Source of the DNA: a virus
Length of the DNA: 32,888 bases
Reading direction: 5' to 3' (one strand)
IMG/VR virus record: IMGVR_UViG_3300035191_000015
Coordinates: 1 to 32,888 of that record
The position numbers and the translations under genes are program-made. Positions 2,779-30,118 of this stretch are shown one piece after another. The first letter of the stretch is position 1. The number at the start of each line of letters is the position of its first letter. A model generated the notes under the pieces. That model worked only from the letters and a program-made list of their open reading frames with translations, was not told where the DNA came from and ran no database searches.

Positions 2779-2976
2779 TCACTCTCCGTGGATCTTGAGC
2801 TGGTGGCCCTCGACCATGCCCTGAACGAATGACAGCGTTTCAGTGAGACGCCGAATGTCGGCGAGCATGTCCTTGAGCAGCTCGACCAGCTGCGGATTGT
2901 TAGGCCCGACCGCCTGAATGACGGCCCGGTCGTCGTATTTCCCGCTCTGGCACCACTCCTGCCTATCCATTGCCAT
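2779..2976 (-). CDS. Small helical protein of unknown function (65 aa)
   Basis: The protein is short and mostly helical; the second half (LVELLKDMLADIRRLTETLSF) has heptad-like leucines. No family is recognised. Two ATG codons (2976 and 2970) are possible; the first has AGAAGG immediately upstream and both overlap the end of the RecT gene. The overlap and the tight spacing to the next gene place it in the recombination operon. Confidence 0.6.
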   Translation of the reverse strand: MAMDRQEWCQSGKYDDRAVIQAVGPNNPQLVELLKDMLADIRRLTETLSFVQGMVEGHQLKIHGE

Positions 2977-4063
2977 TGGCCTTCTCCGCGTTCTCCTCGG
3001 CTTGCTCGACGAAGGACACCAGCGCGGCCTTGAAGTCCGGTCGATCGTTCACCTCGAGCTTGTCGATCTGTTTGCACTCGAACGTGTCGAGGATCTTGCA
3101 CACGTCGGCGGCGAACTCCACCTCGGGGATCTCCCATCCGACCTTCGTGTAGGCGGCCACGCCTCGAGCGACGAGCTCCTCGTACTGTTTGCGCCAGTTG
3201 GACGGCTTCCCGGCTTTGATCTCCATCGTCATACGCAGGAGATAGTCCTCATTCGCCGTCTGGACCTGGGGGGCTAGTTCGGGCGGCTCGGGGGCCTCCG
3301 GCTCGTCTGAGGGCGGTTCTGGCTCCTCCTGGGGGGTATCTTCGACCACCTCGGCGTCTTGAACGTCGGCCGGGGGTGCGGGGAGCTCCTCCGGGATCGG
3401 CGTTTCGACCTGGAGCTCGGCGACCTGAGCCTCGAGGCCCGTGAGGGGGTCTTTGATCGTCTGGACCTCAACGGCCTCTACGTCGTTGCCGTCGAGCTCC
3501 TCGCGCAGATAGACGCCGCGCAGGACGTCCGGGAACAGGTCGCGCAGCACGAACCCTCGAGCCCTCATCTGCATCATGCGCTCGGGGTACTGTTTCCACG
3601 GCCCCGCCTTGTCCCATAGGCCGGCACGTTGCGCCATTTTGACCGTGAACCGATGTTTGGCCGAGTCGCCGTTGGTGCGCTCCGCGTAACAGTCGTAGCC
3701 CATGATCTCGCCGTCGTCGTTGATGACGGGGTCCTCTTGGAACTTCGCCATTGCCCCAGAGGCCCGCACCACGCCGAGTGCAGCGTCACCCCAAACAGAG
3801 GGACGCCCGTTGATGACCGCGATGTTCTGGACTGACGCCATCGGCGGGAGGCCGATCTCCATCCCGAGCTCCATCGCCACGAACACCTGAGCTGCGCTGG
3901 TGAAGTGCTTGGGGATCATGCCGGAGTTCGCGAAGATGTGCGCGATCCGGTACATCTGATCAAAGTCCTTCGGGACCAGGCCGCCCGTGATCTTGCCGCC
4001 AGTCATGACAACCGGCTTTGGGTCAGCCTTTGCGAGTTTCGTTTCAGTCGATGATTCGGACAC
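2963..4063 (-). CDS. recT: RecT-family single-strand annealing protein with C-terminal extension (366 aa)
   Basis: The N-terminal 200 residues match the RecT family: KDFDQMYRIAHIFANSGMIP, then AMELGMEIGLPPMASVQNIA, then NGRPSVWGDA. RecT proteins anneal complementary single strands and work with a partner 5'-3' exonuclease, here the gene at 4954-5925. After the annealase core comes a Pro/Glu-rich, probably disordered linker of about 60 residues, then a separate C-terminal domain of roughly 110 residues ending in a charged tail. A GTG at 4063 is chosen as start because AAGGAAGGG lies just upstream; an upstream extension to 4138 has no such signal. The gene overlaps the preceding small gene by 20 bases. 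The extension is unusual and may bind a partner protein. Confidence 0.88.
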   Translation of the reverse strand: MSESSTETKLAKADPKPVVMTGGKITGGLVPKDFDQMYRIAHIFANSGMIPKHFTSAAQVFVAMELGMEIGLPPMASVQNIAVINGRPSVWGDAALGVVRASGAMAKFQEDPVINDDGEIMGYDCYAERTNGDSAKHRFTVKMAQRAGLWDKAGPWKQYPERMMQMRARGFVLRDLFPDVLRGVYLREELDGNDVEAVEVQTIKDPLTGLEAQVAELQVETPIPEELPAPPADVQDAEVVEDTPQEEPEPPSDEPEAPEPPELAPQVQTANEDYLLRMTMEIKAGKPSNWRKQYEELVARGVAAYTKVGWEIPEVEFAADVCKILDTFECKQIDKLEVNDRPDFKAALVSFVEQAEENAEKANGNG

Positions 4064-4289
4064 GTTGCCCTTCCTTTCTGACCGCCTTCCACGGCGGTAT
4101 GTCTTCGTCCATGAGGTGGACCCGGTCGTAGTCGTCACGCCCTACGGCCCAATCGTTGCCCACGGCCTCGATCCGCACCATGCGATAGATGCGGCTACAG
4201 ATGTAGACGACCTGGCCGACGCGCAGAAAGTCGAAAGGGACCTTCTGCGATGGCTCGACCATCTCGTATTCCATGTCGAGGTCGGTCAC
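4044..4289 (-). CDS. Small protein of unknown function (81 aa)
   Basis: I do not recognise this protein. It contains a short beta-rich pattern (FLRVGQVVYIC, then YRMVRIEAVGNDWAVGR), compatible with a small SH3-like or OB-like barrel. A GTG start at 4289 overlaps the previous stop as GTGA and has GGAGGA four bases upstream. Placement between the exonuclease and RecT genes suggests an accessory role in recombination, but there is no direct evidence. Confidence 0.65.
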   Translation of the reverse strand: MTDLDMEYEMVEPSQKVPFDFLRVGQVVYICSRIYRMVRIEAVGNDWAVGRDDYDRVHLMDEDIPPWKAVRKEGQRVRIID

Positions 4290-4645
4290 GGCTCCTCCGG
4301 TTCGTAATTCCTGTATGCCGTCTCGATGAGGTGCTTGATTTTAGTCGCCGGCTGCGGCCTATTTTTCCCACCAGGACAGAAGTGTTCTTGGAGACGCAGA
4401 AAAAAATCAAAGGCCCTCACCAATTCCGCAAGCACGGAATCGCTCGCCCACACCTTTTTTTTGATTTGAACAATCCAATCCAAAATTTCGGATGGCTCAA
4501 CGCACTCATAAAGGTCAATTTGGTAGTCCATCGGGCTATAGGTCAAATACCTGTCATCAACGAGCTCCCAATGGACAAAGGAGGGTGGTGTGAATCGCAT
4601 TTTCATCAGTTCTTCCAGCGTTATCGGGTCGGTAAATCTCGGCAT
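4286..4645 (-). CDS. Hypothetical protein (119 aa)
   Basis: No family is recognised. The protein is soluble-looking, with aromatic-rich stretches (SFVHWELVDDRYLTY) and a helical, Lys-rich middle (IVQIKKKVW). The ATG at 4645 has GGAGAA at a good distance. The gene is less GC-rich than its neighbours (poly-A/T runs around 4395 and 4455), which may point to a later acquisition. It lies between exonuclease and RecT. Confidence 0.65.
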   Translation of the reverse strand: MPRFTDPITLEELMKMRFTPPSFVHWELVDDRYLTYSPMDYQIDLYECVEPSEILDWIVQIKKKVWASDSVLAELVRAFDFFLRLQEHFCPGGKNRPQPATKIKHLIETAYRNYEPEEP

Positions 4646-4660
4646 TTTATTCTCCTAGCG

Positions 4661-4954
4661 TCACGGCTCCTCCGGGTACTGTTCGAGCACCTCCAACAGC
4701 TTGTCGAGGTGCGAGTTAGCGTTGCGTTTGAAGGCCCGTAGGCCCTGGTTGTATCGGGTGACCCGCTCCAGGTCCGGGATGGTCTCCGGGGGATCGTCCA
4801 CGAGGGTTTTCGCCTCAACACAGAGACGGCGGGCCTCCTCGTAGGTGCGGATCGAGTCCTGGAGCATGTGGAGCGCCTCTTTGTAGAGCCGCCGAATCTC
4901 GGTGGCCTTGAGCTCCTCCGGTGTCGGGGGTGGGTCGTTGCCGAAGATCCCCAT
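4661..4954 (-). CDS. Helical protein of unknown function (97 aa)
   Basis: The protein begins MGIFGNDPPPTPEEL and continues as charged helices, probably a coiled coil or helical hairpin (about residues 16-50 and 62-93). The ATG at 4954 overlaps the stop of the exonuclease gene as TGATG, so translation is probably coupled. I do not recognise the family. It could be a small partner of the recombination proteins. Confidence 0.65.
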   Translation of the reverse strand: MGIFGNDPPPTPEELKATEIRRLYKEALHMLQDSIRTYEEARRLCVEAKTLVDDPPETIPDLERVTRYNQGLRAFKRNANSHLDKLLEVLEQYPEEP

Positions 4955-5925
4955 CAGTACACCCTCAACGTGATCTTCCCTTTGACGATCTTCTGGTACT
5001 TCGCGTACACGTCCGGGAGATCGCGCTTGATGGCCGCCGAGTCGATCCGCTTCTGGTGCGTCTCGTACATGACGAGGCCGCGCCCGTCGATCTTCACCTT
5101 GCGCGGCTTGTCGCCGAGATGCAGCCGGATCTTCTCCCTGGCCTTCTCGCGGAGCTCCTTGGCCTGGTTCAGCACCTCATCGACGCGGTCGTACTCCTCG
5201 AGCATCATCCGCAAAGCGTTGTCGTCGAGCTCCTCCGCCGCGCCCTCGGCCTTCTCGAACTGCGGGTTGAAGGCGGCACCCTGACAGGTCAACCTCCAGG
5301 CGCACTTCTGGCACCGCTTGTCTTCGGGCATGAGGCGATCCGGCGCGGGGCCGTTCTCGACCATCCGCCAGAACCGATCGCCGGCAATCATCATTTGGTC
5401 GATCGCCTTCATGTCCCACTTCACCTCGGCGAAGTACCATTGCCAGCTCACCGGCTCGAGGGCCGCATAGAGCGCCCACTCCCACCCGGTCAGCTGGAGG
5501 TAGTGTTGCAGCTGGAGGATCTCGCGCTCCGGCACACCCTCCGACTGGAGGGCCTTGAACGGCCACGGGCCTTTGGTCTTTGCCTCGAAGACACCCGTAG
5601 CGTGATCGGAGTCACCCACCACCATGCGGTCGGGGTGACCGATCCACCACTCCGGGAGCTCGCGAACGGAAAGGCGGCCAACCTTGCGGAGCTTCACGCC
5701 GATTCTTTCCTCCGTACCATCGGCGACGAGCTGCTCCATGAGGTGGCCGCGCTCAAAGTAGGCCGGACGCTCTACCGGGAAGTCCTGCGGCTCCTGCCGC
5801 TTCTCGTACCAGAGCCTCCGGGAGCATCCGTAGGGCTCGAGGCCCAGAACATCACTCCAGTCGGACCCTCCTATTCCACGCAGCCGCTCCTCCTCGAACG
5901 CTGCGCGGTCGAATGATTCCGCCAT
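4954..5925 (-). CDS. YqaJ/RecB-type 5'-3' exonuclease with cysteine cluster (323 aa)
   Basis: The protein has the marks of the YqaJ/lambda-exonuclease PD-(D/E)XK nucleases. IGGSD is at residues 18-22. The catalytic set is D99 (GHPD), E114 and K116 (FEAK). QLQHY follows at 138-142. It also has one early cysteine (C34 in GCSRRLW) and three later ones in CxxC-x5-C (C205, C208, C214). The same layout holds an iron-sulphur cluster in AddB, Cas4 and Dna2 nucleases. It should resect double-strand ends to make single strands for the RecT protein encoded downstream. The ATG at 5925 has AGAAGGGA upstream. The exonuclease call is strong; the Fe-S cluster is inferred from cysteine spacing. Confidence 0.85.
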   Translation of the reverse strand: MAESFDRAAFEEERLRGIGGSDWSDVLGLEPYGCSRRLWYEKRQEPQDFPVERPAYFERGHLMEQLVADGTEERIGVKLRKVGRLSVRELPEWWIGHPDRMVVGDSDHATGVFEAKTKGPWPFKALQSEGVPEREILQLQHYLQLTGWEWALYAALEPVSWQWYFAEVKWDMKAIDQMMIAGDRFWRMVENGPAPDRLMPEDKRCQKCAWRLTCQGAAFNPQFEKAEGAAEELDDNALRMMLEEYDRVDEVLNQAKELREKAREKIRLHLGDKPRKVKIDGRGLVMYETHQKRIDSAAIKRDLPDVYAKYQKIVKGKITLRVY

Positions 5926-6368
5926 TTTCTTTCCCTTCTCCGAGGTAGAATGGCCTCGGACCTTCTTCCCGGAGCCCTCGAGTTGGCATTGGGCCGCTCG
6001 GGGGCTCCACCTTTTGAAAAGGGGTGTGCTGCCGGGAGCTGGTCAGTCGGATTTCTCTCATTCGGCCAGCGGATGTTTGGGTAGTCGGCGTAGTGGGGTG
6101 TTCCTTGTAGTCAAATCGGGTAGTCGAAGTTCCGGTTTTGGGGCATCCGCCCCCAAGAACCCCCCGGCCCTCGAGGAGCTCTTGAGGGGCGGACGCCTGA
6201 CACCCTGGACTCGAACCAGGGACAACATGATCCATTGTCATGTGCGCTACCCACTGCGCCAGTGTCGTTGTTTGGAACGTCAGAACCGATCCCGACTGAG
6301 CTGAATTTGTACCCCGCGCAGCTCCCCACGCGGCTCTCCCACCACAGCACACCGCAATCTTCACAGCG
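5926..6368 (-). other. 443-base structured non-coding stretch
   Basis: I see no convincing gene here on either strand. The region holds the tRNA-like cloverleaf at 6196-6268. There is a hairpin of CCGAGG and CCTCGG (5940-5959) directly before the exonuclease ribosome binding site. A 12-pair hairpin lies at 5971-6008 (one wobble pair on the plus strand, one mismatch on the minus strand). A GGGGC/GCCCC hairpin is near 6140-6153, and an imperfect palindrome centred on GAGCTC is at 6168-6188. The hexamer GTAGTC (plus strand) occurs at 6081, 6107 and 6120, spaced 26 and 13 bases. It is probably the leader and control region of the recombination operon. Confidence 0.6.
6196..6268 (-). tRNA. tRNA-like element, degenerate or non-decoding (anticodon position AUG)
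   Basis: The minus strand folds as a cloverleaf. A D-stem GCGC/GCGC encloses an eight-base loop with A14, G15, G18-G19 and A21. The anticodon stem is CATGA/TCATG and the variable loop TTGTC. The T-stem CCTGG/CCAGG encloses TTCGAGT, and U8 is present. The acceptor has five inner pairs (GACAC/GTGTC), but positions 1-72 and 2-71 do not pair. The anticodon loop CAATGGA has A, not U, at position 33, and would read as anticodon AUG. CCA is not encoded. The core is too complete for chance, yet the anomalies argue against a normal decoding tRNA. Confidence 0.5.
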
Positions 6369-6668
6369 TCAGTCCTTGAAGTCGTCCATCACGGAGTCCT
6401 GGACCTCGATCTGCGTGTTCCAGTTCGCCTGTTGGATCGCGGCATCCACAAGGCGGAGCTGGCGAGCATGCCAGTCGTAACAGGCCGTAAGCTCGTTCGC
6501 AGGGATCTTCGGGACCTTGGCGACGATGTCGTCGTAGTCATCGGACACCTTTTTCCGTGTCATCACGACCTCGTGAAGCACCTCGTCCTTGACTCGTGCT
6601 AGGACGTTGACTTTCTCCTGCAATTCCTTCCGTCGCAGGAGGGCTTCGGCCAATAGGATCTTCTTCAT
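6369..6668 (-). CDS. DIP1984-like protein (99 aa)
   Basis: The start (KKILLAEALLRRKELQEKV) and the end (RQLRLVDAAIQQANWNTQIEV) match the pattern of DIP1984-family proteins (MKLAEAL..R..L ... LQ.TNW...), which are helical and of unknown function. This copy is shorter than the usual roughly 150 residues. The ATG at 6668 has GGAGGA upstream and overlaps the stop of the 39-residue gene as ATGA. Family assignment rests on motif recall only. Confidence 0.65.
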   Translation of the reverse strand: MKKILLAEALLRRKELQEKVNVLARVKDEVLHEVVMTRKKVSDDYDDIVAKVPKIPANELTACYDWHARQLRLVDAAIQQANWNTQIEVQDSVMDDFKD

Positions 6669-7106: not shown

Positions 7107-7652
7107 TCAGCCCTTACCCGTACCGTTCATCAGGTAACGGGAGAAAGCCTCTGTCTTGTCCTTCGATCCTCGACTGGAGCCGAGGTAAAAGTAGAACCCC
7201 TGGAGGGCCATCGCCTGCGCCGTCGCCAGCACAAAGAACAGAATGTCCCTCTGTTGTTCCGCGAACGTGATACCGATCTTGTCGCCAAAGAGGATGACCA
7301 CCAGGACGAGCACCCATTGCATCCACCCCAAAATGGCGAGAACCGCGGGCATCTTGTCTTTGACCGCAATGTGGCGAGCTCGAGCGTCCGCAACGTCCTG
7401 GAGGTAAAGCTGGTCTTCGCGAATGCCGAGTTCGCGCATCTTCACCTTGAACTCAACCTCGGCATCCTTGAGGGCTTTGAGCGTGTCCATGTCCCCGGCT
7501 TCAATTGCCGCCTCGACCTCGGTGGTGCTTTTGCCGGTGGCCGCCTTGATGGCGGCGGCCGCAATCCCACCAAACGGCCCCCCGAGGGCCGTGGCGATCA
7601 TCGGAGCGATCCCGGTGAGCGTCTGGAACCACTTCTTGTCCTTGAGTGCCAT
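7107..7652 (-). CDS. 3TM holin (gene-transfer-agent type, 181 aa)
   Basis: The protein has a Gly/Ala-rich hydrophobic N-terminal stretch (about 14-40), a charged helical middle, and two clear membrane helices at about 101-123 and 134-157. It then carries GSSRGSKDKT (158-167), the characteristic tail motif of 3TM holins linked to gene-transfer-agent release. Such holins open the inner membrane so that the endolysin (9231-9593) can reach the wall. The ATG at 7652 overlaps the preceding stop as TGATG. It is the last gene before the terminator. Family assignment is by motif and topology. Confidence 0.78.
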   Translation of the reverse strand: MALKDKKWFQTLTGIAPMIATALGGPFGGIAAAAIKAATGKSTTEVEAAIEAGDMDTLKALKDAEVEFKVKMRELGIREDQLYLQDVADARARHIAVKDKMPAVLAILGWMQWVLVLVVILFGDKIGITFAEQQRDILFFVLATAQAMALQGFYFYLGSSRGSKDKTEAFSRYLMNGTGKG

Positions 7653-7879
7653 CAGAACAGCCCCACGAACTCCCGGATGGCCCAGAGGGAACCCATGACC
7701 AGGAACCCGCCGCCGACGCCGGCCCAGAACCACCGCTTGGCCTTGGTTTCGGTGACGTCGAGGTAGATGCGGACCATCTGTGGGTTGTTGAACAGGGCCT
7801 TGGCCTCAGGGCCGAAGTTGGTGTGCTGCGCCCAGGCCGCCTTTGCCTTGTGTTCCGCTTCTCTGAAAAAGCTCGCCAT
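7652..7879 (-). CDS. Small membrane protein in the lysis region (75 aa)
   Basis: A cytoplasmic-looking N-terminal half (FFREAEHKAKAAWAQHTNFGPE) is followed by one membrane helix near the C-terminus (about residues 51-73, WFWAGVGGGFLVMGSLWAI). Two adjacent ATG codons (7882 and 7879) are possible; GGAG is four or seven bases upstream. The second overlaps the previous stop as TGATG. Lying directly before the holin, it may be a holin partner or antiholin, but I do not recognise a family. Confidence 0.65.
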   Translation of the reverse strand: MASFFREAEHKAKAAWAQHTNFGPEAKALFNNPQMVRIYLDVTETKAKRWFWAGVGGGFLVMGSLWAIREFVGLF

Positions 7880-8106
7880 CATTCTTCTCCAATCTCGTTG
7901 CTCCCGCAGGCACGGCACTTCATTGCACCCTTGTAGCCGGGAAGCGACTCATACCGTGTTCCACAGTGAGCGCATTTGTAATACCGAGCGCCGAACAGGA
8001 GCTCGTCCTGCTGGCCGTCGTGCCTGTCTGGTGTTGCGGACAACCGCATGACCGTGCGGGAGATTTGAGTGAAGTTCCCCGTGCCACGCATCCCGAACAC
8101 CGCCAT
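7879..8106 (-). CDS. Zinc-ribbon protein with capsid-protein-like N-terminus (75 aa)
   Basis: The C-terminal half is a zinc ribbon: CAHC and CRAC separated by 16 residues, with aromatic and glycine residues in the usual places. The first 12 residues, MAVFGMRGTGNF, match the first 12 of the major capsid protein (MAVFGMRGSGDW) at nine positions, and the other three are conservative changes. The codons differ at many third positions, so this is protein-level similarity. The ATG at 8106 overlaps the previous stop as TGATG, which fixes the start. A role in contact with the capsid or a shared partner is possible; the function is unknown. Confidence 0.75.
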   Translation of the reverse strand: MAVFGMRGTGNFTQISRTVMRLSATPDRHDGQQDELLFGARYYKCAHCGTRYESLPGYKGAMKCRACGSNEIGEE

Positions 8107-8783
8107 CAGGTCGGGTCCGGCTGCGACCACGGCGGCGGGCCGCTGATCGGTGTGGACGGTCCCCACCCTCCGGCGACGTTCTCCTCACCCATCTTCTGGT
8201 AGAGCTCGCGGAGCTCGGTCGAGACAGCTTCCACCCACGGCCAGTAGTAGCGTGTGTGACGCTTACTCGGCGGCACCGGCTCCATGACTGTGTAGCACCG
8301 CTTCTCGAGCCACCGGGCCATCCGCTGCGTGATCTTCACGCACTCTGCCGGGGTGACCTTGCCCATCGGGGACTCCTGGTGATCGTTGGCCTCCTGGCGG
8401 TAGGCGTTGACCATGTAGCGCCAGACGAGGTCGAGGTTGGAGAATCCGTCCTGGATGCTTTCGGGGGAATAGTTGGCCGGAGGCGGGAGGTACATGGCGT
8501 ATTGCGCGTCCTTCCCGTACTCCTCGGCTTTCTTCTCCAGCTCCTCCGCCCACCAGCGCCAGTTGTACTCGCTCGAAATGAACGGCTCGAACCCGGCGTC
8601 GAGCAGGGCGGTGATGACGTGGGCGCAGTCGGAGTAGAACGTGCCACGGTGGTAGATCATGCGTCGGGCGGAGATTCGCTCACCGAGGGTGGCGAGAATG
8701 CCCTCCATCAGTCCGCATCCACCGGCCCACGCATAGAAATAATCCGGGATCGGGGCAATCGTGTCGTTTCGATCGTCAGGCAT
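8106..8783 (-). CDS. Hypothetical protein (225 aa)
   Basis: I do not recognise this protein. It is soluble, rich in Trp and Tyr, with several predicted helices (for example WWAEELEKKAEEYG and ECVKITQRMARWLEKRC) and a Pro/Gly-rich C-terminus. The ATG at 8783 has GGGAGGA at seven bases; longer in-frame versions lack a signal and would overlap the previous gene. It lies among lysis and accessory genes in the late operon, so late expression is likely. Confidence 0.65.
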   Translation of the reverse strand: MPDDRNDTIAPIPDYFYAWAGGCGLMEGILATLGERISARRMIYHRGTFYSDCAHVITALLDAGFEPFISSEYNWRWWAEELEKKAEEYGKDAQYAMYLPPPANYSPESIQDGFSNLDLVWRYMVNAYRQEANDHQESPMGKVTPAECVKITQRMARWLEKRCYTVMEPVPPSKRHTRYYWPWVEAVSTELRELYQKMGEENVAGGWGPSTPISGPPPWSQPDPT

Positions 8784-8802: not shown

Positions 8803-9231
8803 TTACAGGGTTGATAATGGAGGTAGTGGGGTGGAGTCCCCTGTCCACGCGACGAGGTAATTTGTCCCCACCCCACCACCAGGTCTTTGCGGTTGGCATC
8901 GTTGAATCGGTGAAACCCACGTATCGGAGTAATTTGGATGCGGCTTGTTCTGCCAATCAAGCGAACCATCCTCGAAGCCGTCTTTCCAGATGGAGAATTC
9001 GTGGCGATACTTCACGTCTGACCAGATTTGATACTGACCGCATGGCACCAGGAGGGTCACCGCCAGCCCCCAGGCCACCGGCTCCCGCATGAGCTGCCCG
9101 TTGATCATGATCCGCCACTCCGCGTTGATCGGGATTCCTTCGCTTGCGATCATGTCTACGCTGACGTCCTGAGTGCAGCAAGGTTGGTAGGGAATGAGCT
9201 GCGCGAACAGGACGAACAGGAGAGCTTTCAT
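8803..9231 (-). CDS. Secreted protein of unknown function (142 aa)
   Basis: The N-terminus looks like a signal peptide (MKALLFVLFAQLIPYQPCC, cleavage or lipid attachment near residues 18-19), although the lipobox is not canonical. The remainder is beta-rich and contains two more cysteines, ending in a Pro/Gly-rich tail. The ATG at 9231 overlaps the endolysin stop as TGATG. Its position after the endolysin would suit an outer-membrane spanin or a superinfection-exclusion protein. Neither is supported by a recognised motif. Confidence 0.6.
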   Translation of the reverse strand: MKALLFVLFAQLIPYQPCCTQDVSVDMIASEGIPINAEWRIMINGQLMREPVAWGLAVTLLVPCGQYQIWSDVKYRHEFSIWKDGFEDGSLDWQNKPHPNYSDTWVSPIQRCQPQRPGGGVGTNYLVAWTGDSTPLPPLSTL

Positions 9232-9593
9232 CAGTACACCCAGATTCGAGGCTGCGGCAGGAAGGGGTCAAGATCGACATGCACGAAGGTCTTTGCAATC
9301 CCGACTCGCTCGAAGTCGAACCCAAGCGCGGCCTTCACAAAGCGGAACCGGAGCTCGGAATCGAGCACGGCCACGTCGGCGGCCGTGCCGCGCATGTGGG
9401 CTGAGTGGGGAACTCCACCAACCGCCTGATTGTGTTGGAGACAGCGGAGGCCGCTGTTGATTCTCAGGGGAACCCCGAGAACGTCTCGAATGCTTTGGAG
9501 CCGATCGACCAGGTCGATGCTCACGTCATCAAGCCCACATCCACAGTTGCATGCGAACTCGGAGCGACTGAAATTCTTGGTAAGGTCACCCAT
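9231..9593 (-). CDS. Endolysin, M15-type peptidase (120 aa)
   Basis: This small protein matches the M15 (VanY/D-Ala-D-Ala type) peptidase fold. The zinc ligands are H66 and D73 in SAHxxGxAAD and H105 in FVHVD; the entry NFSRSEFACNCG and the RINSGLR strand are typical. Such enzymes cut peptide cross-links in peptidoglycan. No signal peptide or membrane segment is present, so release depends on the holin. The start at 9593 overlaps the preceding stop as TAATG. At 120 residues it is a single-domain endolysin without a wall-binding module. Confidence 0.88.
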   Translation of the reverse strand: MGDLTKNFSRSEFACNCGCGLDDVSIDLVDRLQSIRDVLGVPLRINSGLRCLQHNQAVGGVPHSAHMRGTAADVAVLDSELRFRFVKAALGFDFERVGIAKTFVHVDLDPFLPQPRIWVY

Positions 9594-9853
9594 TATTCTC
9601 CGCCCCATCTTAAAATGGCGATGGCAACCATGATCAGCACGGGAATTGCCGAACCGATTATGCCCCAGATTCCGGCCCGGATGCTGAACTCTTTCGCCAA
9701 CAGCGCGTTCTTGAGTTTCAGTTCGTTCACCTCGGCATTCAACGTCTTTATGTCGTCCGCATGGCCCTCGAGCGTTCGTGCAGCGTAGTAGAACCATTGG
9801 GAGACGTCCTCGGGAGGGCCTCCCGGCAACTGCGGAGGCTGGTTAGCGGCCAT
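9593..9853 (-). CDS. XhlA-like membrane protein (86 aa)
   Basis: A short Pro-rich start leads to a heptad-containing helix (ADDIKTLNAEVNELKLKNALL, about 33-53). A single C-terminal membrane helix follows (about 62-82, IWGIIGSAIPVLIMVAIAIL), ending in RWGGE. This resembles XhlA-type haemolysin or holin-associated proteins, in which the coiled coil is cytoplasmic. The gene directly precedes and overlaps the endolysin gene. The ATG at 9853 overlaps the cupin stop by 11 bases. It may assist lysis; family assignment is tentative. Confidence 0.6.
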   Translation of the reverse strand: MAANQPPQLPGGPPEDVSQWFYYAARTLEGHADDIKTLNAEVNELKLKNALLAKEFSIRAGIWGIIGSAIPVLIMVAIAILRWGGE

Positions 9854-10301
9854 CCGGCATCTCGGGGATAGCCGGGACGGAAACGGCCACACACCACGTA
9901 TCCTCGAGCGCCGTTATACGGTGTTGGATTCCAGGCGAGATGAAGATGTGTTGCCCGGAACGAATGATTCTCACCTCGTTCCCGTCGCATTCGCATTTGA
10001 AGGCTCCCCGGTACACGATGATCCACTCGTTCTCGAGGTGTGAGTGAAGCCCCAAAACGCCCCCCTCAGGGACATGCGACTGCGCCACCGCCACCTCTTT
10101 CTCTATGTTGAGAAGGTTGTAAGCGGTGGCTTGGCTTCCGTCCTCCAGGTCGTATTTCGCGATGGACGGAGCCTCGGCGATTTTGTGGGTGAGCTCTTTG
10201 AGCTTCCCTAGGTATTTCGGATCGGATGGCAACTCGACCTCCTCGTAACTTGTGGTCAGACTCAGCATTTTGGAAATTGGTGGAATGCTGGCGGTGCTCA
10301 T
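9843..10301 (-). CDS. Cupin-domain protein (152 aa)
   Basis: The first cupin motif is clear: GGVLGLHSHLENEWIIVYRG, with H86, H88 and E92 as metal ligands and G99 closing. The second motif SPGIQH supplies H127. A single cupin barrel occupies about residues 70-145, after a 60-residue helical lead. Cupins bind a metal and act as enzymes, sensors or structural folds; the substrate cannot be guessed. The start overlaps the stop of the giant gene as ATGA, so it is expressed late. It may be a virion component or act on the host during late infection. Confidence 0.82.
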   Translation of the reverse strand: MSTASIPPISKMLSLTTSYEEVELPSDPKYLGKLKELTHKIAEAPSIAKYDLEDGSQATAYNLLNIEKEVAVAQSHVPEGGVLGLHSHLENEWIIVYRGAFKCECDGNEVRIIRSGQHIFISPGIQHRITALEDTWCVAVSVPAIPEMPDGR

Positions 10302-13300
10302 CGTTTGGATCTCCTTCCAAGGAGTGCCTCGTCCGCCTTCCTCATCTCCTCGATCATCTGTTCATCTTCTTTCCGGTTCACCCGACTGGCCGCCCTCTGC
10401 CACGGGTCACCGAAATACCTCCAACGCAATGTCTGAATGCGTGTCGTGAGCTTTTTGTGGCCCTTGTCGTCCTTGTAGGCCGGCTCGACACCAGAGGCGA
10501 GGAACCGAGCTTGTACCGCCCGATCGCTCATTGAAGGGTCACGTTTCAGGATCTCAAGGATCATTTTGTCTCGCTCGAGGGTCCGGGCCGACCGGATTTC
10601 CCTCTCGGCCATGATGGACTCCCAGATCTTCTCCTGCAAGCCGTAGTCCGACACTTTGATGAACCGCTTGAGCAGCTGGTTCAGGCCGGGGATGCGGGTG
10701 GCCCTCTCAAGCTCGCTACCTGGATCTCCCTGATTCTCGGTGTTGAAGTCGAACAGGACGTGGAGCCCGAGATTGTTCCAGGTGTGTTTCAGCATGTAGG
10801 AGCGCATTTCGCTGCGGTTCCCTGTCTTGAATACCGACTCTGGGATCACCGGGCGTCCTCGATAGAAGTCCTGCGGGTTCTGTCCGGTCGCGTACTGCCC
10901 CCATTGCCGCATGACGTCCACGTAGGGATTGAGGCTTCCGAGCCCGAACGGGAAGTTCTGATTGAAGGTGTGCCAGAAGTCTTGGAGAAAGTCTTCGCGA
11001 TCGGTGAGGGTCTTCCAGAAGATCGCGCCCAATGCCTGCGAGATGTGGTCCTCAGGGAACCTCAGATAGACGGCCTTGCCGTCTTTGGTGAGCCCGAGCG
11101 GAACAATCTGGTAATTCGCCTTGTCGTGGTCCGGGATGCGATCGAATACCGCCTTGAGTCCAGGGCCGAGCAACCCGGCAGCCCCAAAACCGAGCATCAT
11201 CTTGGGGAACAGGGTGTACCAGAAGATCTTCTGCGCGTAGACAGCCGGATCTTTATCGGCGGCCTCTGTGGACGTCCGTATGTCCTGCGCGGCCACGTTC
11301 GAGAACAGCCATACCGAGTTGTAGACCTTCTTGGCATCACCCCCGGCCATAATGTCCGGCGTCCCCACTGAACGCCTCGTCAAGCTCGCAATCTCCGGCA
11401 TGGTGAGGCCGAGCTCGTGGCGGTGTTCCTTGAGGTAGCGATACCCGGCAATCTTCACCACGCGCTCCGTGAGCTGGCCTGGATCGGACAGGAGGCGCGA
11501 AATGCGGTTGAGGGTGTTGTGGACCACGTTCTCGTGATCCTGTGGCTTGAGCCCGTACCGCTCGAGCAGGAGCCTCGACGCCTCCTCCTCTGTAATGTCG
11601 CCAGCTTTCCAGAACCGGAGGCCGGTCTGAATCAGAGCTCGATTCTTGAGCATCTCCCTCACAATCGGAGTGCGTGTGTCGCGGTAGACGTCCTTCCATG
11701 CGTCAGGAAGCGCCCGCCAGAGCTCGTAGGTGACCTGAGCCACCGGAGTGAGCGGATCGACCATGCGGATCTTCTTGCCGCCTGGGAGCGGGACCTCGAC
11801 GATTTTCCCGACCGGGAGCTTTTTCAGGAAGGCTTTCGTGTCGCGCTGAATGTTCCAGATCGGCCAGAACGGGTTGTGGTCAACCATGACCGCACGTAGA
11901 GCTCGTGTCGCCAACGCCCACTGACGGTGGAGCTGGCCGGACCCCTTCGGCGATTTCAGCCCTTTTGCAAAGTCCTTCGGGATGTACGCTCCCATCATCG
12001 TGCCGTGAGACAGCCACCGGACGAGCTCGTACTCCGCCCCGTCCACACCCCTTGCGTCCTGCGCCTGGAGATAATGCTTTCGGCCTCGAGCTCCACGCTT
12101 GAACTGACCGTCAATCACCTTCTCCGGGAAGAACTCACGGAGCCAAGCGATCGCCTCGCTCACCGCCTGGTTGCGGTGGGCCATGCGAAGCATCGCCACG
12201 TCCTTGAGCACCGTTTCCACGAGCGGGTTCCCAATTTCCTTGAGCGTCCCGACCTGCGGGTATACCCACCCGTCCGGCAGATCCTCGAGAAAGTCGATGA
12301 CCTGATAGGTCGAATAACCGTGTACGGAGTCCCGCATGTGTTTCAAAAGCGAAGGCTTCAACATCTTCGCTTCCTCAACCATGTTGAATAGCTGGTGCCT
12401 CATGCCGGCGAAGCCCTCGAGGGCCTGCATGATGACTTCCTGGTCCTCGACTGAGAACCGCTGTTTCAGCTTGTCGAGGGTCCGCTGCGCGTACTCACCA
12501 CTCAGGCCGAGGGGGTTCGCCTTGCTCGCACGGCCGCCGAGCTCCTCGTCAACGGCAGCTCGTTTCAACCCGAGCCAGCCGCCGAGCTCGACGTCCGACA
12601 TGATCTGGCGCACCGGGCCGAGCACCTCTGCGGTCCATAGGTCGAGGTACCAGGCGATGGCGCTGTTGTGGTAGAGCATCTCCTCCAGCTTGAACAGCGG
12701 GTCCTTGGCTGGATCGTATTTCCTGGCCTTTTTCAGCGCCCTCCGGGCGTTGTACCAACTCTGTTTCGACTCGAGCATTGTGTGGAGGATCGACTGCGCC
12801 AAATTGAGGCCCTCACGCCGTTTCGTGAGCTCCTGCATGCGCTTTTCCTCGCCCTTTGCCACCATCTCGAGGTATCGCTGAAGTCGGTGATCGTCGAGCA
12901 TGTCCCTGTCACTGGCAAGCTGCTGGAGATCCTGCCACGTCGCCTGAAACTCCGGTTTCGCGTCCATCCACCCGAGAAGCATGTCGTAGGTGGTCGGAGC
13001 CCTCTGCTTCACCAGGGCCGGGTCATTCAGGAAGGCCGAAATGACGTCCGCGTAGACCTCTTTGCCGTTCTTCCGGTACTTGAGGTAGGAGGCCGAGGGG
13101 TTGTCGCCGAGGGGTCGCCATTCTACCGAGAGGCCCCACGTCTCGTTCCAGATCTCCTCTTTGGTGACCAGGTCGCGCTTTTTCAGCTCCTCGTACAAGA
13201 GCTCGCGGAACCGCTGTTCCGGGTTGGTGAACTTGACGCGCTTCACCTTGATCTTCTTGCCGGTGTACTCGCGCACCGTTTTCCCGAACCGCTTGAGCTC

Positions 13301-16300
13301 GTCCGGCACCATGCCCTTCATGGCCTGTTGGATGATCGCCTTCTTCTGGGCGGTGTTGAGGCCCTTGATGAACGTGTGAAGCTCCTCCGGGGCCGTGGGG
13401 GTGTACATCTGCCAGATCGAAAGAATGTCTTCCGGCGTGACGCCGATCGTCTTTTCGATGAACTCCTCGATTTCCTCCTCGTACTCGATCCGCGTTTCCT
13501 TCTTGGCCTGTTTCCGCAGCCGATCGCGGTCTTGTTTCGAGATGAAGTCCACCGGCTCCGTGGGAAGCCTGGAGATTGTGTGTTTCAGGTACTTCACGAG
13601 CCCTGCAATGCGCCCAAGGATGTTCCCACGGCTCAGGGTGCCTTCCGGCAGGAAGTCGATCCAGTGGCCGATCTCGTGCGCCAGCGTGGATGCTGCCTGA
13701 TGCGGATCGCGGAAGATCGCCGCCTGGAGCTGGATCTCGCCGGAGCGCCGATCGCCCTTCTTGTGCTGGAACATGCCTCGCACGAACGGGTTCCGCGCCA
13801 CCAGGCGCTTGACCTTCGGGAACTTGCCCTTGCCGAGCGCAACCGCGAGCTCAACGAGCTCGGGGAAGGCCAGCGAGAAGACGTCCCGCTCATGTGTCTT
13901 CCGGCCCTCCGGGATGACGCCAGCGATCTCCGGGCTCGGGTCTTCGCCGGAGCCCTTCACGTCTCGTTCCCCGGTCCTGGCCGCCGCATAGTCTCCGAGG
14001 GAGGCGTTGTTAGCTCCCCCGGTGGGCTGCGTCGGTGGGCTGTCCAGGCCCTTGACCACGAGCTCCCCGTCTTCAACGGGGTACCACATTGCGATCCCGG
14101 CGAGCTCGTCGTTCTTGAAGAACGCCACCATGCTCTTGTTGTCAGCGTTCTTGTCGTAGCGGACCTCGTCGAACTCAATCGCCTCTTTCATGAACTCGTG
14201 AGTGTCCAGGCGCAGGGTCCGATCAGGGATGATCTCGCCTTTCTCGTCCACGAACACCGCGTAGCCCACCGACTCAGGAACGAACGTGTTCTTCTCGCCG
14301 ATCGAGCCGTAAATCTCACGGTGCGTGGTGTAGATCTGGTAGCCGAGGAACTCTGCCTTGTCGGTGAACTTCCGGGCCTGGTCCACGATTCTTTTGGCAT
14401 CCGGCTTTTTCGAGACGTCTTCCTTGATTTTCTTGACGTGCTTGCCTGCCGGAGTGTTGAGCAGCGCATCTTGCGAGATCCAGAACTCGCCGTTCGTCCA
14501 ATCCCCCTGTTCCGTCTTGTAAGACGTCTTCCGTTCGGGGAATGCCGCTGTTTTCGAGTAGTGCATCTTCGCACCGAGCGCAGGAACCGAGAATTTCTTC
14601 GGCTTCACCCTCGTGGAGTTAATCGTCGAGCTCGTCATTTTCGCCGGCTTGTGATCTTTCAGCGAGAACATGGGGTGTTTCGAGGGCTTTTTGCCGGTCA
14701 TGGTGTAGATGAAGTCCGCGACACCCTTCGGGTTTAGATAGAAGGTGCCATCTTCCGGGACGGCCATTTTCACGATGATCGGCTCATCTTGTGGAACAAT
14801 TTCTTTCTTCTTCAAGCGGTCGAAATAGGCATCCTCGAGCTCCTGGTTCCAGACCTTGGGCAAATTCTCCTTGATCCACTTTTCCTGAGTTGCCGAAAAC
14901 CCTCGAGCTGTGGGGTTGACCTTGGAACCCTTCGTCCCCACAACGCTCCTCGCATCGCCCGTGACCTCGATGACCTTCGGGCCTTGCGTTGCGGCAGGGC
15001 CAGTCTCCATCGTCTTGATCTCGTCAAGCGTGAGTCGATCGCCCTTTTCAGCCTGCGCCCAGATTTCGTTGGCAAGGCTCGTTGCGCTCTCGAGCTTGAA
15101 CGGAACGGACGTAATCACGAATGGGCGGACGTCCGGGCGTTTCAACACCACGGCCCATTTGCTCAACCCGCCATGCTGCGCCTTCGAGTAGTCCGGGTGC
15201 TGGCGTATGAGCATCCTCTCGCCGGCCCATTCAATCCATCTGTCCCTGGCGCGGTACTTGAGCTTCTTGACTGCGTCCTCGCGTGAGCCGGGGAAGGCAA
15301 CATCTTCCTTCTCTTTCGGCTTCGGTGTAACGACCTCCTCGACGGGGGGCTCGGGAATCTCTTTTCCGGCTCCGCCGTAATGCTTGTCGATCTGTTCGCG
15401 AACGCGAGTTTTCATGTCCCACACGGCCCAAGCTCGGGCCTCCTGCTCAGACGTGAACTTCCCGTTGCGCCCACCACGTATCGTGTCGAGATTGTTCCCC
15501 GCCTCCGGGGTGTACCAATCGCGCTCGACGGTCCAGTAGTTGTCGGACTGTGGGTCCTGAAGCACCTCATAGGCGAAATGCGGAGGATCCTCGAGATCTA
15601 CAGGCCACACCGCATGTTTCATGTCACCGTAGCCCTTGTCGGAGATCCGGTCGAGCTCGATCTGGAGCCGTTCCATCAGGCTTCGATAGGTCTTTGCGCG
15701 ACTGGCTTTGGTGGGAGCCGCTTTTCCTGGTGCCTCGGCCTGCCCTGTGTAGGTGAAACGCGCACGTAGTTGCTTTTCCGTGAACGAGTGCTTGTGGTTG
15801 TCATCGAACAGGAGTTGGTAGTTGATGATCCCCTTCTTGTTGGGTGTGGCTTTGAGAATCTGCACTCCCATGCCGTCGCGGTTGCGCTTCCACTTCGCGC
15901 CGATCTGGAGTTGGTCCTCGCGCTCGGCTTTCGGGACCTCACCAAGAGTGAAAACGGGCATCATCCCGCTTTCTTGCTGCATGGTGATCTCGTTGTCCCG
16001 AACCATGTTCTCTAGGAGTTCGGAGTACGGCTTCTTGGCCGTCATCGGTTCCTCGAGGCCGCGAATGATCTCGTTGATCGCCAGAGGGCCGTCCGCTTGT
16101 TCGAGCAGAGTGATGATGTCTTCTTTCGCCCGCTGCCGAAAACCGCTGTCCGTGTCTTGGATCTCTTTGACGAGCTGGTCGATCGTAAGGCCCTTTGCCC
16201 AATCGGAAACAACGGCGTCTTGCGGCACGACGTCCCCGCCGTACCACTCGCGGAGCTCGGCGGCCATCTTTTCGGGATCGCGCAGAGCTCCAAGGTAGGT

Positions 16301-28924: not shown

Positions 28925-30118
28925 TCACGCCACGTAGGCGTTGAGACCGTACCAGTGTCCATGCACTTCCTCGAGCGCAAGCGACATGCCGATCTCGCCG
29001 ATGTACTGGCCCTTCCGAGCGTCCTCGTCGGGCAGTTGGATGTTGTCCTCCCAATCAATGTCCCGACCGTTCATGACCACCATCTCGGCGTACTTCGTGT
29101 CGATGATGAACACGTCCTTGGTGTACGCCGCCGACTCGGTCATCAGCGGGTGCGGGACCAGGTTCAACGTGCCGAAGGGGCAGCGCCACTTGGTCACGTT
29201 GAGGCCGTAGGTTTGGTTGGCAGGCAGGTTGTTGAGCTCGTAGGTCAGCGCGGAGTTGCGGCTCGCCACCCGGTTCAGGATGTTGAGGGCGCGGTTTCCG
29301 CACAGAGCGAGCTTGTTCTTGGAGCCGTACTTGAACACCGCCTGGAGGCCGTCCTCGAGGGTGTCGAGATCGACGCCGCCCGAAAAGTCGGTCGCGTTGG
29401 TGGTGATCAGGCTCTTGAGGCCGGACGTGGTGCGAAGGGCTTCGCCGTCCGGGCCGGTGGTTTCGGCCTTGATGCCGTAGAGGAAGGCGTACTCCGCCTT
29501 GATCATGATCCGCTCCAGGGCTTCGCCCTTGAGCTGCGGCCACGGCTTCATGGGCCGGGTGTTGGTCTTCTCGGCGGTCTTCGTCACCTTCACCAGATCC
29601 TTGAAGATCTGCGTGTAGTTGGTGACCACCGTGGGGTTCCGCGACACGGCGGACGGCCCTCTCGAGCCCTCCTCGTAGGCCGAGCCAACCCACCGCATGA
29701 TGGAGTTGTCGGCGATGACCGCGCCGTTGTTGGTCAGGCCCCAATAGCGATCCACGGAGACGGTGAGCCACGGAGACACCGGATCGTTGATGACCCGGAC
29801 GATCTCGCCGGACGTCTCGTCCCGCAGAAGGTCGCCGGCTTTGAGGCCCTTGGCGGGCGTCGAGCCGGGAGCGTCGAAGGTGAGGGTGGTCGCGCTGATT
29901 GCGACCTCCCCGTTGATGGTGAATGCCATGTCCGGCAGCCGCCACTCGAAGATCTTGAACTCGGCGTCATCGACCGTGCGGGTCGGGAGCTTCGACAAGA
30001 TGTAGGTGAACGGAGCCGGACTGTCGGGAAAGAGCTTGAAGGCCATCTGGCGATAGTTCTTTGGTCGCTCGTCAGGCGAGGACCAATCACCAGAGCCTCT
30101 CATTCCAAAGACAGCCAT
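28925..30118 (-). CDS. Major capsid protein, SU10/DUF5309 type (397 aa)
   Basis: The middle carries the family signature: RNPTVVTNYTQIFKDLVKV, then KGEALERIMIKAEYAFLYG, then ALRTTSGLKSLI. The C-terminal half contains the usual FGTLNLVPHPLM, VFIIDTKYAEMVVM and GQYIGEIGMSLALEEVHGHW. It is an HK97-fold coat protein assembling the icosahedral head. The N-terminal arm MAVFGMRGSGDW is echoed in the zinc-ribbon protein at 7879-8106. The ATG at 30118 follows AAAGGA, 35 bases after the scaffold gene. No internal protease gene is seen, so maturation may not need cleavage. Confidence 0.88.
   Translation of the reverse strand: MAVFGMRGSGDWSSPDERPKNYRQMAFKLFPDSPAPFTYILSKLPTRTVDDAEFKIFEWRLPDMAFTINGEVAISATTLTFDAPGSTPAKGLKAGDLLRDETSGEIVRVINDPVSPWLTVSVDRYWGLTNNGAVIADNSIMRWVGSAYEEGSRGPSAVSRNPTVVTNYTQIFKDLVKVTKTAEKTNTRPMKPWPQLKGEALERIMIKAEYAFLYGIKAETTGPDGEALRTTSGLKSLITTNATDFSGGVDLDTLEDGLQAVFKYGSKNKLALCGNRALNILNRVASRNSALTYELNNLPANQTYGLNVTKWRCPFGTLNLVPHPLMTESAAYTKDVFIIDTKYAEMVVMNGRDIDWEDNIQLPDEDARKGQYIGEIGMSLALEEVHGHWYGLNAYVA

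Follow-up and report, generated by a model that had tools for sequence, protein, structure and literature searches.

A small zinc-ribbon protein of a phage begins with a peptide that resembles the N-terminal arm tip of major capsid proteins

The phage sequence analysed here encodes a 75-residue zinc-ribbon protein whose first 12 residues, MAVFGMRGTGNF, resemble the start of the major capsid protein (MCP) of the same phage, MAVFGMRGSGDW. Nine of the 12 positions are identical and the remaining three are T/S, N/D and F/W exchanges. This resemblance was recorded in a preliminary description of the DNA; it is confirmed here, with both open reading frames starting at the positions listed below, and within the sequences searched it is unique. 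Judged from sequence, the protein may be a capsid-arm mimic, a reading that we hold tentatively. The tip of the N-terminal arm would then be used as a docking peptide, by which the protein could enter the phage's own heads or could regulate or disrupt assembly that depends on the arm. Rival phages could be affected as well, namely those whose MCPs carry a nearer match to the peptide.

The window, that is the whole stretch of DNA analysed, is virus record IMGVR_UViG_3300035191_000015 (32,888 bases, without terminal repeats). It is apparently a fragment, since the portal gene is at its extreme end and aligns with no more than the later portion of the family profile. All of the window genes considered are on the minus strand. 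The features needed for the argument are given below.

7107..7652, minus strand: holin-like protein of 181 aa (PHROG 1544, E 3e-21, function unknown)
7652..7882, minus strand: protein of 76 aa that may have one membrane segment, its start overlapping the zinc-ribbon stop
7879..8106, minus strand: open reading frame of the 75-aa zinc-ribbon protein with the MCP-arm N-terminus
7906..7977, minus strand: zinc-ribbon part, residues 44–67, CAHC...CRAC, two CxxC knuckles by sequence
8071..8106, minus strand: codons 1–12, capsid-arm-like peptide MAVFGMRGTGNF (25.0 bits against the MCP-arm profile)
8106..8783, minus strand: open reading frame of a 225-aa protein of unknown function, its stop overlapping the zinc-ribbon start
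9231..9596, minus strand: M15 peptidase, endolysin-like (PF08291, E 2e-19; PHROG 894, endolysin; start codon uncertain)
28925..30118, minus strand: MCP of 397 aa, SU10_MCP family (PF17236, E 1e-39; PHROG 1328, major head protein)
30083..30118, minus strand: MCP codons 1–12, N-terminal arm tip MAVFGMRGSGDW, conserved in 26 aligned MCPs and of low pLDDT
30154..31287, minus strand: acidic protein directly upstream of the MCP gene, a candidate scaffolding protein by position and composition

The zinc-ribbon gene is situated between the endolysin-like and holin-like genes, in the lysis region and away from the head genes. The holin-like protein is annotated as ‘holin’ in one tblastn match and has a relative in G003, the nearest phage in which the region is present (MCP 57% identical). 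No relatives of the 225-aa upstream product were found, and the 76-aa protein gave no Pfam match. For the acidic protein no family was matched at an E value below 0.04; its relatives are found at the equivalent position in L003 and L059. Elsewhere in the window, positions 2963–5925 contain genes for a RecT-like annealing protein and a RecE-like exonuclease, and a tRNA-His with the unusual anticodon ATG is predicted at 6195–6268, within a region (5925–6369) that is without a clear gene. Downstream of the structural genes a single open reading frame of 2,735 aa (10298–18505) takes up a quarter of the record; its product is perhaps a giant internal virion protein.

The zinc-ribbon open reading frame (8106–7879) translates in full as MAVFGMRGTGNFTQISRTVMRLSATPDRHDGQQDELLFGARYYKCAHCGTRYESLPGYKGAMKCRACGSNEIGEE. 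Two CxxC knuckles, C44AHC47 and C64RAC67, are separated by 16 residues within the C-terminal half of the protein. The gene overlaps both neighbours and therefore looks real: its ATG shares bases with the stop of the preceding gene (TGATG), and its TGA with the start of the following one (ATGATG). It has no visible Shine–Dalgarno site of its own. The best Pfam match is to Zn_ribbon_8, at 18 bits against a cut-off of 34.4. Two CxxC knuckles are likewise found in the small zinc-ribbon proteins of this and similar families, whereas no family member was seen with a capsid-arm N-terminus. The predicted model is poor (mean pLDDT 62), with two short strands in the ribbon part.

The likeness of the two N-termini was assessed in two ways. 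All 703 pairs formed by 38 window genes were compared over the 11 residues that follow the initial Met; the zinc-ribbon protein and the MCP have eight in common and the other 702 pairs have four at most. The number of pairs expected to be as alike as these is 3e-4. Seven of the 38 starts used are not start codons, so that some of the N-termini compared are approximate. In addition, a profile of the eight-residue arm core was built from the MCPs of other phages, including neither window protein, and was run against 10,015 six-frame segments (62 sequences, 915,367 bases; 20 of 82 loci, nearly all duplicates, were left out). Of the 41 segments that reached 18 bits, 40 are MCPs and the remaining one is the zinc-ribbon protein, with 25.0 bits; the best unrelated, non-capsid segment scored 15.5 bits. 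Together the pair statistics and the profile score indicate that the start of the zinc-ribbon protein is a genuine capsid-arm peptide. That two short N-termini became alike by chance or by unrelated convergence is consequently an unlikely origin, and we judge it quite improbable, even though the likeness spans 12 residues only and many windows were presumably read to find such a case.

The likeness is confined to a defined part of the arm. The zinc-ribbon protein retains all five of the most conserved MCP-arm residues (M1, G5, R7, G8 and G10), and its likeness to the MCP ends at residue 12, where the variable linker of the MCPs begins and before P19 and R23. The second arm block, RPKNxR, is absent. 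In the SU10-type, HK97-fold MCPs (PF17236; PDB 9in6; SU10, PDB 7z45) the same first-12 block, G-M/L-R-G-T/S-G-D/N-W/F, stands at the N-terminus; in contrast to these, the zinc-ribbon protein has no capsid domain and no RPKNxR block and at 75 residues is not a capsid protein. It gives no match to PF17236 and so falls outside the family, which takes in whole-domain, HK97-fold proteins.

The longer N-terminal stretch of the window MCP (30118–28925) reads MAVFGMRGSGDWSSPDERPKNYRQ. It was aligned with 25 other MCPs that are 22–75% identical to it. In these 26 sequences M1, G5 and G10 are invariant, R7 and G8 are conserved in at least 90%, and after the first block come a variable linker and the motif RP-x-N-[FWY]-R. 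By this alignment the arm tip is among the most conserved parts of the MCP. The refuting case named in the preliminary description, an arm variable in both proteins, thus fails for the MCP, where the arm is conserved in nearly all of the sequences seen. The motif is not universal, as it is missing from the MCPs of Caulobacter phage Kuura (MAIPGLRNSDSVG) and of L023. In the predicted MCP monomer residues 1–14 have pLDDT values below 50 and are taken as disordered. The nearest solved relative is 9in6, the capsid of Vibrio cholerae phage VP1 (Z 27.0); its structural alignment with the model begins at model residue 33, so that the arm is outside the aligned range. The 9in6 chain has 398 residues in the structure for a sequence of 399, from which the MCP arm seems to be ordered once assembled. 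The arm thus appears to be disordered in the monomer, according to the model, and ordered in the shell, according to the residue counts of 9in6. A segment that is conserved, disordered alone and ordered on assembly has the profile expected of a docking peptide. In the literature searched, FGMRGTGD or GLRGTGD occurred in no paper found, the arm tip had no name and the 9in6 structure was the subject of no paper that turned up.

Three of the MCP genes are interrupted. In L063 (444–2288) the gene is split directly after the arm (MAVLGMRGTGNFSTDDRP) into pieces at 444–500 and 1179–2288. The insert carries a 177-aa LAGLIDADG-like open reading frame at 607–1140 (LAGLIDADG_3, 22.1 bits against a cut-off of 22.5) and is probably a mobile intron; it gave no Rfam match. 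In L161 (42–2015) and L249 (155–319) the interruption comes after about residue 55 (DDPEF...), and the two inserts have similar translated ends (ETPKA/ENPKA..DQSVKL). A possible endonuclease open reading frame is present on the minus strand of the L161 insert (1043–1747). Neither of these inserts matched Rfam at the gathering score.

Other carriers of the arm peptide were sought in related phages. A DNA pattern for the arm core gave one match in each of 15 of 23 related records, all of them MCP starts. Three scans of viral contigs were anchored at the start codon. In the first, 7 of 16 stretches were out of frame. The widest returned at least 119 stretches, of which 117 matches were examined; among these listed matches 116 are in frame and one is out of frame, and all 116 in-frame matches are capsid starts. 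Of these 116 listed starts, 113 are uninterrupted within the limits of the locus, whose end cuts some of them, and the other three are those of L063, L161 and L249. Where matches were left over by the regular expression (8 of 80, seven in frame, and 2 of 37), the in-frame ones were assigned by eye. A fourth scan, without the start codon, gave 17 stretches, made up of GMRGTGNF-type MCPs and some chance matches. In four of five named phages, one of which was covered to 50,000 of 57,692 bases, the arm is present in the MCP only, and in the fifth, Kuura, it has diverged. The preliminary description had singled out MAVFGMRG as a start to look for in non-capsid proteins; on viral contigs this gave no second case, and the exact start was found in no other protein in two of the start-anchored scans. 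L042 and L083 were set aside as chance in-frame matches. In L047/L054, FGIRGWGD stands some 50 residues from the start of a longer protein (of 246 aa in L047) and was likewise put down to chance. The literature search likewise found no non-capsid protein with an MCP-arm N-terminus. As far as can be told from the related phage sequences examined, the zinc-ribbon protein is the only non-capsid carrier of the arm, and no second copy was found in them.

Homologues of the zinc-ribbon protein itself were not recovered. A tblastn search of 50,697 phage records gave matches of E 2 or worse only. Viral contigs gave one locus, L002, which matches residues 59–72 only and is without the arm, and in genome contigs an insensitive search, requiring an exact eight-residue stretch, gave 98 pattern matches and no relatives. 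A degenerate pattern for the knuckles gave 50 stretches; among the matches listed were four short two-knuckle proteins, none with the arm. In G003 no such gene is present beside the holin-like gene. With no homologue found, selection on the zinc-ribbon protein has no direct support.

The origin of the peptide was examined by comparison with 41 distinct MCP starts. It is nearest to MAVLGMRGTGNF, the MCP start of L061, L064, L068–L070 and L074, with which it has 10 of the 11 residues after Met in common, compared with 8 of 11 for the MCP of its own phage. The earlier view that the protein copies this phage's own capsid is therefore not upheld. The codons do differ as had been described: the zinc-ribbon gene and the window MCP gene use the same codon for one of seven identical non-Met residues, where 2.5 are expected from the codon usage of the genome, and the R7 codons, CGT and AGA, are two positions apart. 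Against the 41 MCP starts between 0 and 4 of 5–9 synonymous codons are identical, none clearly above chance, and hence there is no sign of a recent transfer from any of the MCPs sampled. The sequences would fit either an old copy in which the peptide was kept or a donor among unsampled MCPs. Selection on the peptide of the small protein, which had been deduced from the synonymous divergence, does not follow from that divergence alone. As the MCPs themselves are under selection, the pattern would be no different if the donor had been an MCP gene with other codons.

These comparisons bear on the possibility that the first 36 bases are a mosaic relic, acquired by illegitimate recombination from the 5′ end of an MCP gene in another phage and encoding a peptide with no capsid role. 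The nearest match being to other phages' MCPs agrees with this, and the absence of a second copy in the related phages examined is as expected for a one-off event. RecE- and RecT-like recombination proteins promote mosaicism in other phages, and their genes in this phage make recombination plausible. On the other hand, none of the MCP genes compared has near-identical bases over these 36 positions, with synonymous identity near chance for all 41 starts, the likeness ends at the border of a motif and not at an arbitrary position, and V-F at positions 3–4 is the spelling of the clade of the window MCP (L003, L004). We regard a relic as a serious but rather doubtful explanation. Much less probable, indeed scarcely credible, is that the start of a strongly expressed gene was copied and kept to drive translation of the small gene. 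The likeness does begin precisely at the start codon, but almost none of the synonymous codons are the same, the two genes do not share their upstream bases, and the small gene, lacking a visible Shine–Dalgarno site, has a GC-rich start whose predicted folding energy is −24.1 kcal/mol compared with −17.1 kcal/mol for the MCP gene.

The explanation that we prefer, with slightly more reserve than the general idea of a mimic, is that of a translationally coupled protein, probably made at low copy, which would dock through the MCP-arm tip. Its N-terminal 12 residues would stand in for the tip of the arm and may occupy the site of the arm, either the contact with the scaffold or the arm groove of the capsomere. 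The zinc ribbon would thereby be brought to the shell or to assembly intermediates, where the protein might act as a minor capsid-associated protein or as an assembly modulator. In HK97-fold capsids the N-arm is the element by which scaffolding protein is bound in the procapsid, and it afterwards threads onto adjacent subunits of the shell. The MCP N-terminus of SPP1 binds the scaffold in the procapsid and later extends to neighbouring capsomeres (PMC6813328). The N-arm of P22 is likewise in contact with the scaffold and at a later stage projects into a neighbouring subunit (PMC9965877).

Docking through the arm tip is favoured by this behaviour of the SPP1 and P22 arms, by the arm being disordered in the monomer model and apparently ordered in 9in6, and by the zinc-ribbon protein being the sole non-capsid carrier found, with the five most conserved residues kept and a likeness that stops at the linker. 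Synonymous sites that match no MCP clearly above chance would be expected if the peptide were kept and the DNA were not. The gene's stop–start coupling, its lack of a visible Shine–Dalgarno site and the restriction of the likeness to the first conserved block of a conserved arm are observed; the disorder of the monomer arm is a model prediction. Against docking are the lack of a homologue and the absence of the gene from G003, the missing second block and the position in the lysis region rather than with the head genes, and the reliance on predicted disorder and on a poor zinc-ribbon model. The nearer match to other phages' MCPs is also odd for a partner of the phage's own shell. Of the earlier proposal of a docking arm, the conserved MCP tip does fit a docking element, while a copy of the phage's own capsid under proven selection is supported only in part. 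Because no homologue was found to decide between them, docking is preferred with caution and the relic is ranked below it.

The same nearer match, and the position of a short gene among non-head genes, would suit a decoy, whose peptide might jam the assembly of competing or co-infecting phages or adjust in trans the timing of assembly in the phage itself. With an arm this conserved, however, other phages could hardly be poisoned without damage to the phage's own shell, and zinc-ribbon homologues were not found; we consider a decoy improbable, if less so than chance. Satellite and phage proteins such as SaPI CpmB, P4 Sid and the PLE-encoded capsid-remodelling protein redirect capsid assembly. 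If docking is true, the zinc-ribbon protein would by analogy resemble them in being small and in acting on MCP or scaffold contacts. It differs in being encoded by the phage itself rather than by a satellite, and is likened to them by role only.

If docking through the arm is correct, the tip of the HK97-fold N-arm would be a transferable docking tag and a possible handle for loading proteins onto phage heads, and the zinc-ribbon protein would allow a direct test of the role of a conserved arm segment that is predicted to be disordered in the monomer. If the peptide is instead a relic, it would be a clean example of a gene that has captured the start of a capsid gene. In both cases the GMRGTGDW tip, conserved in a large group of MCPs, deserves a structural explanation.
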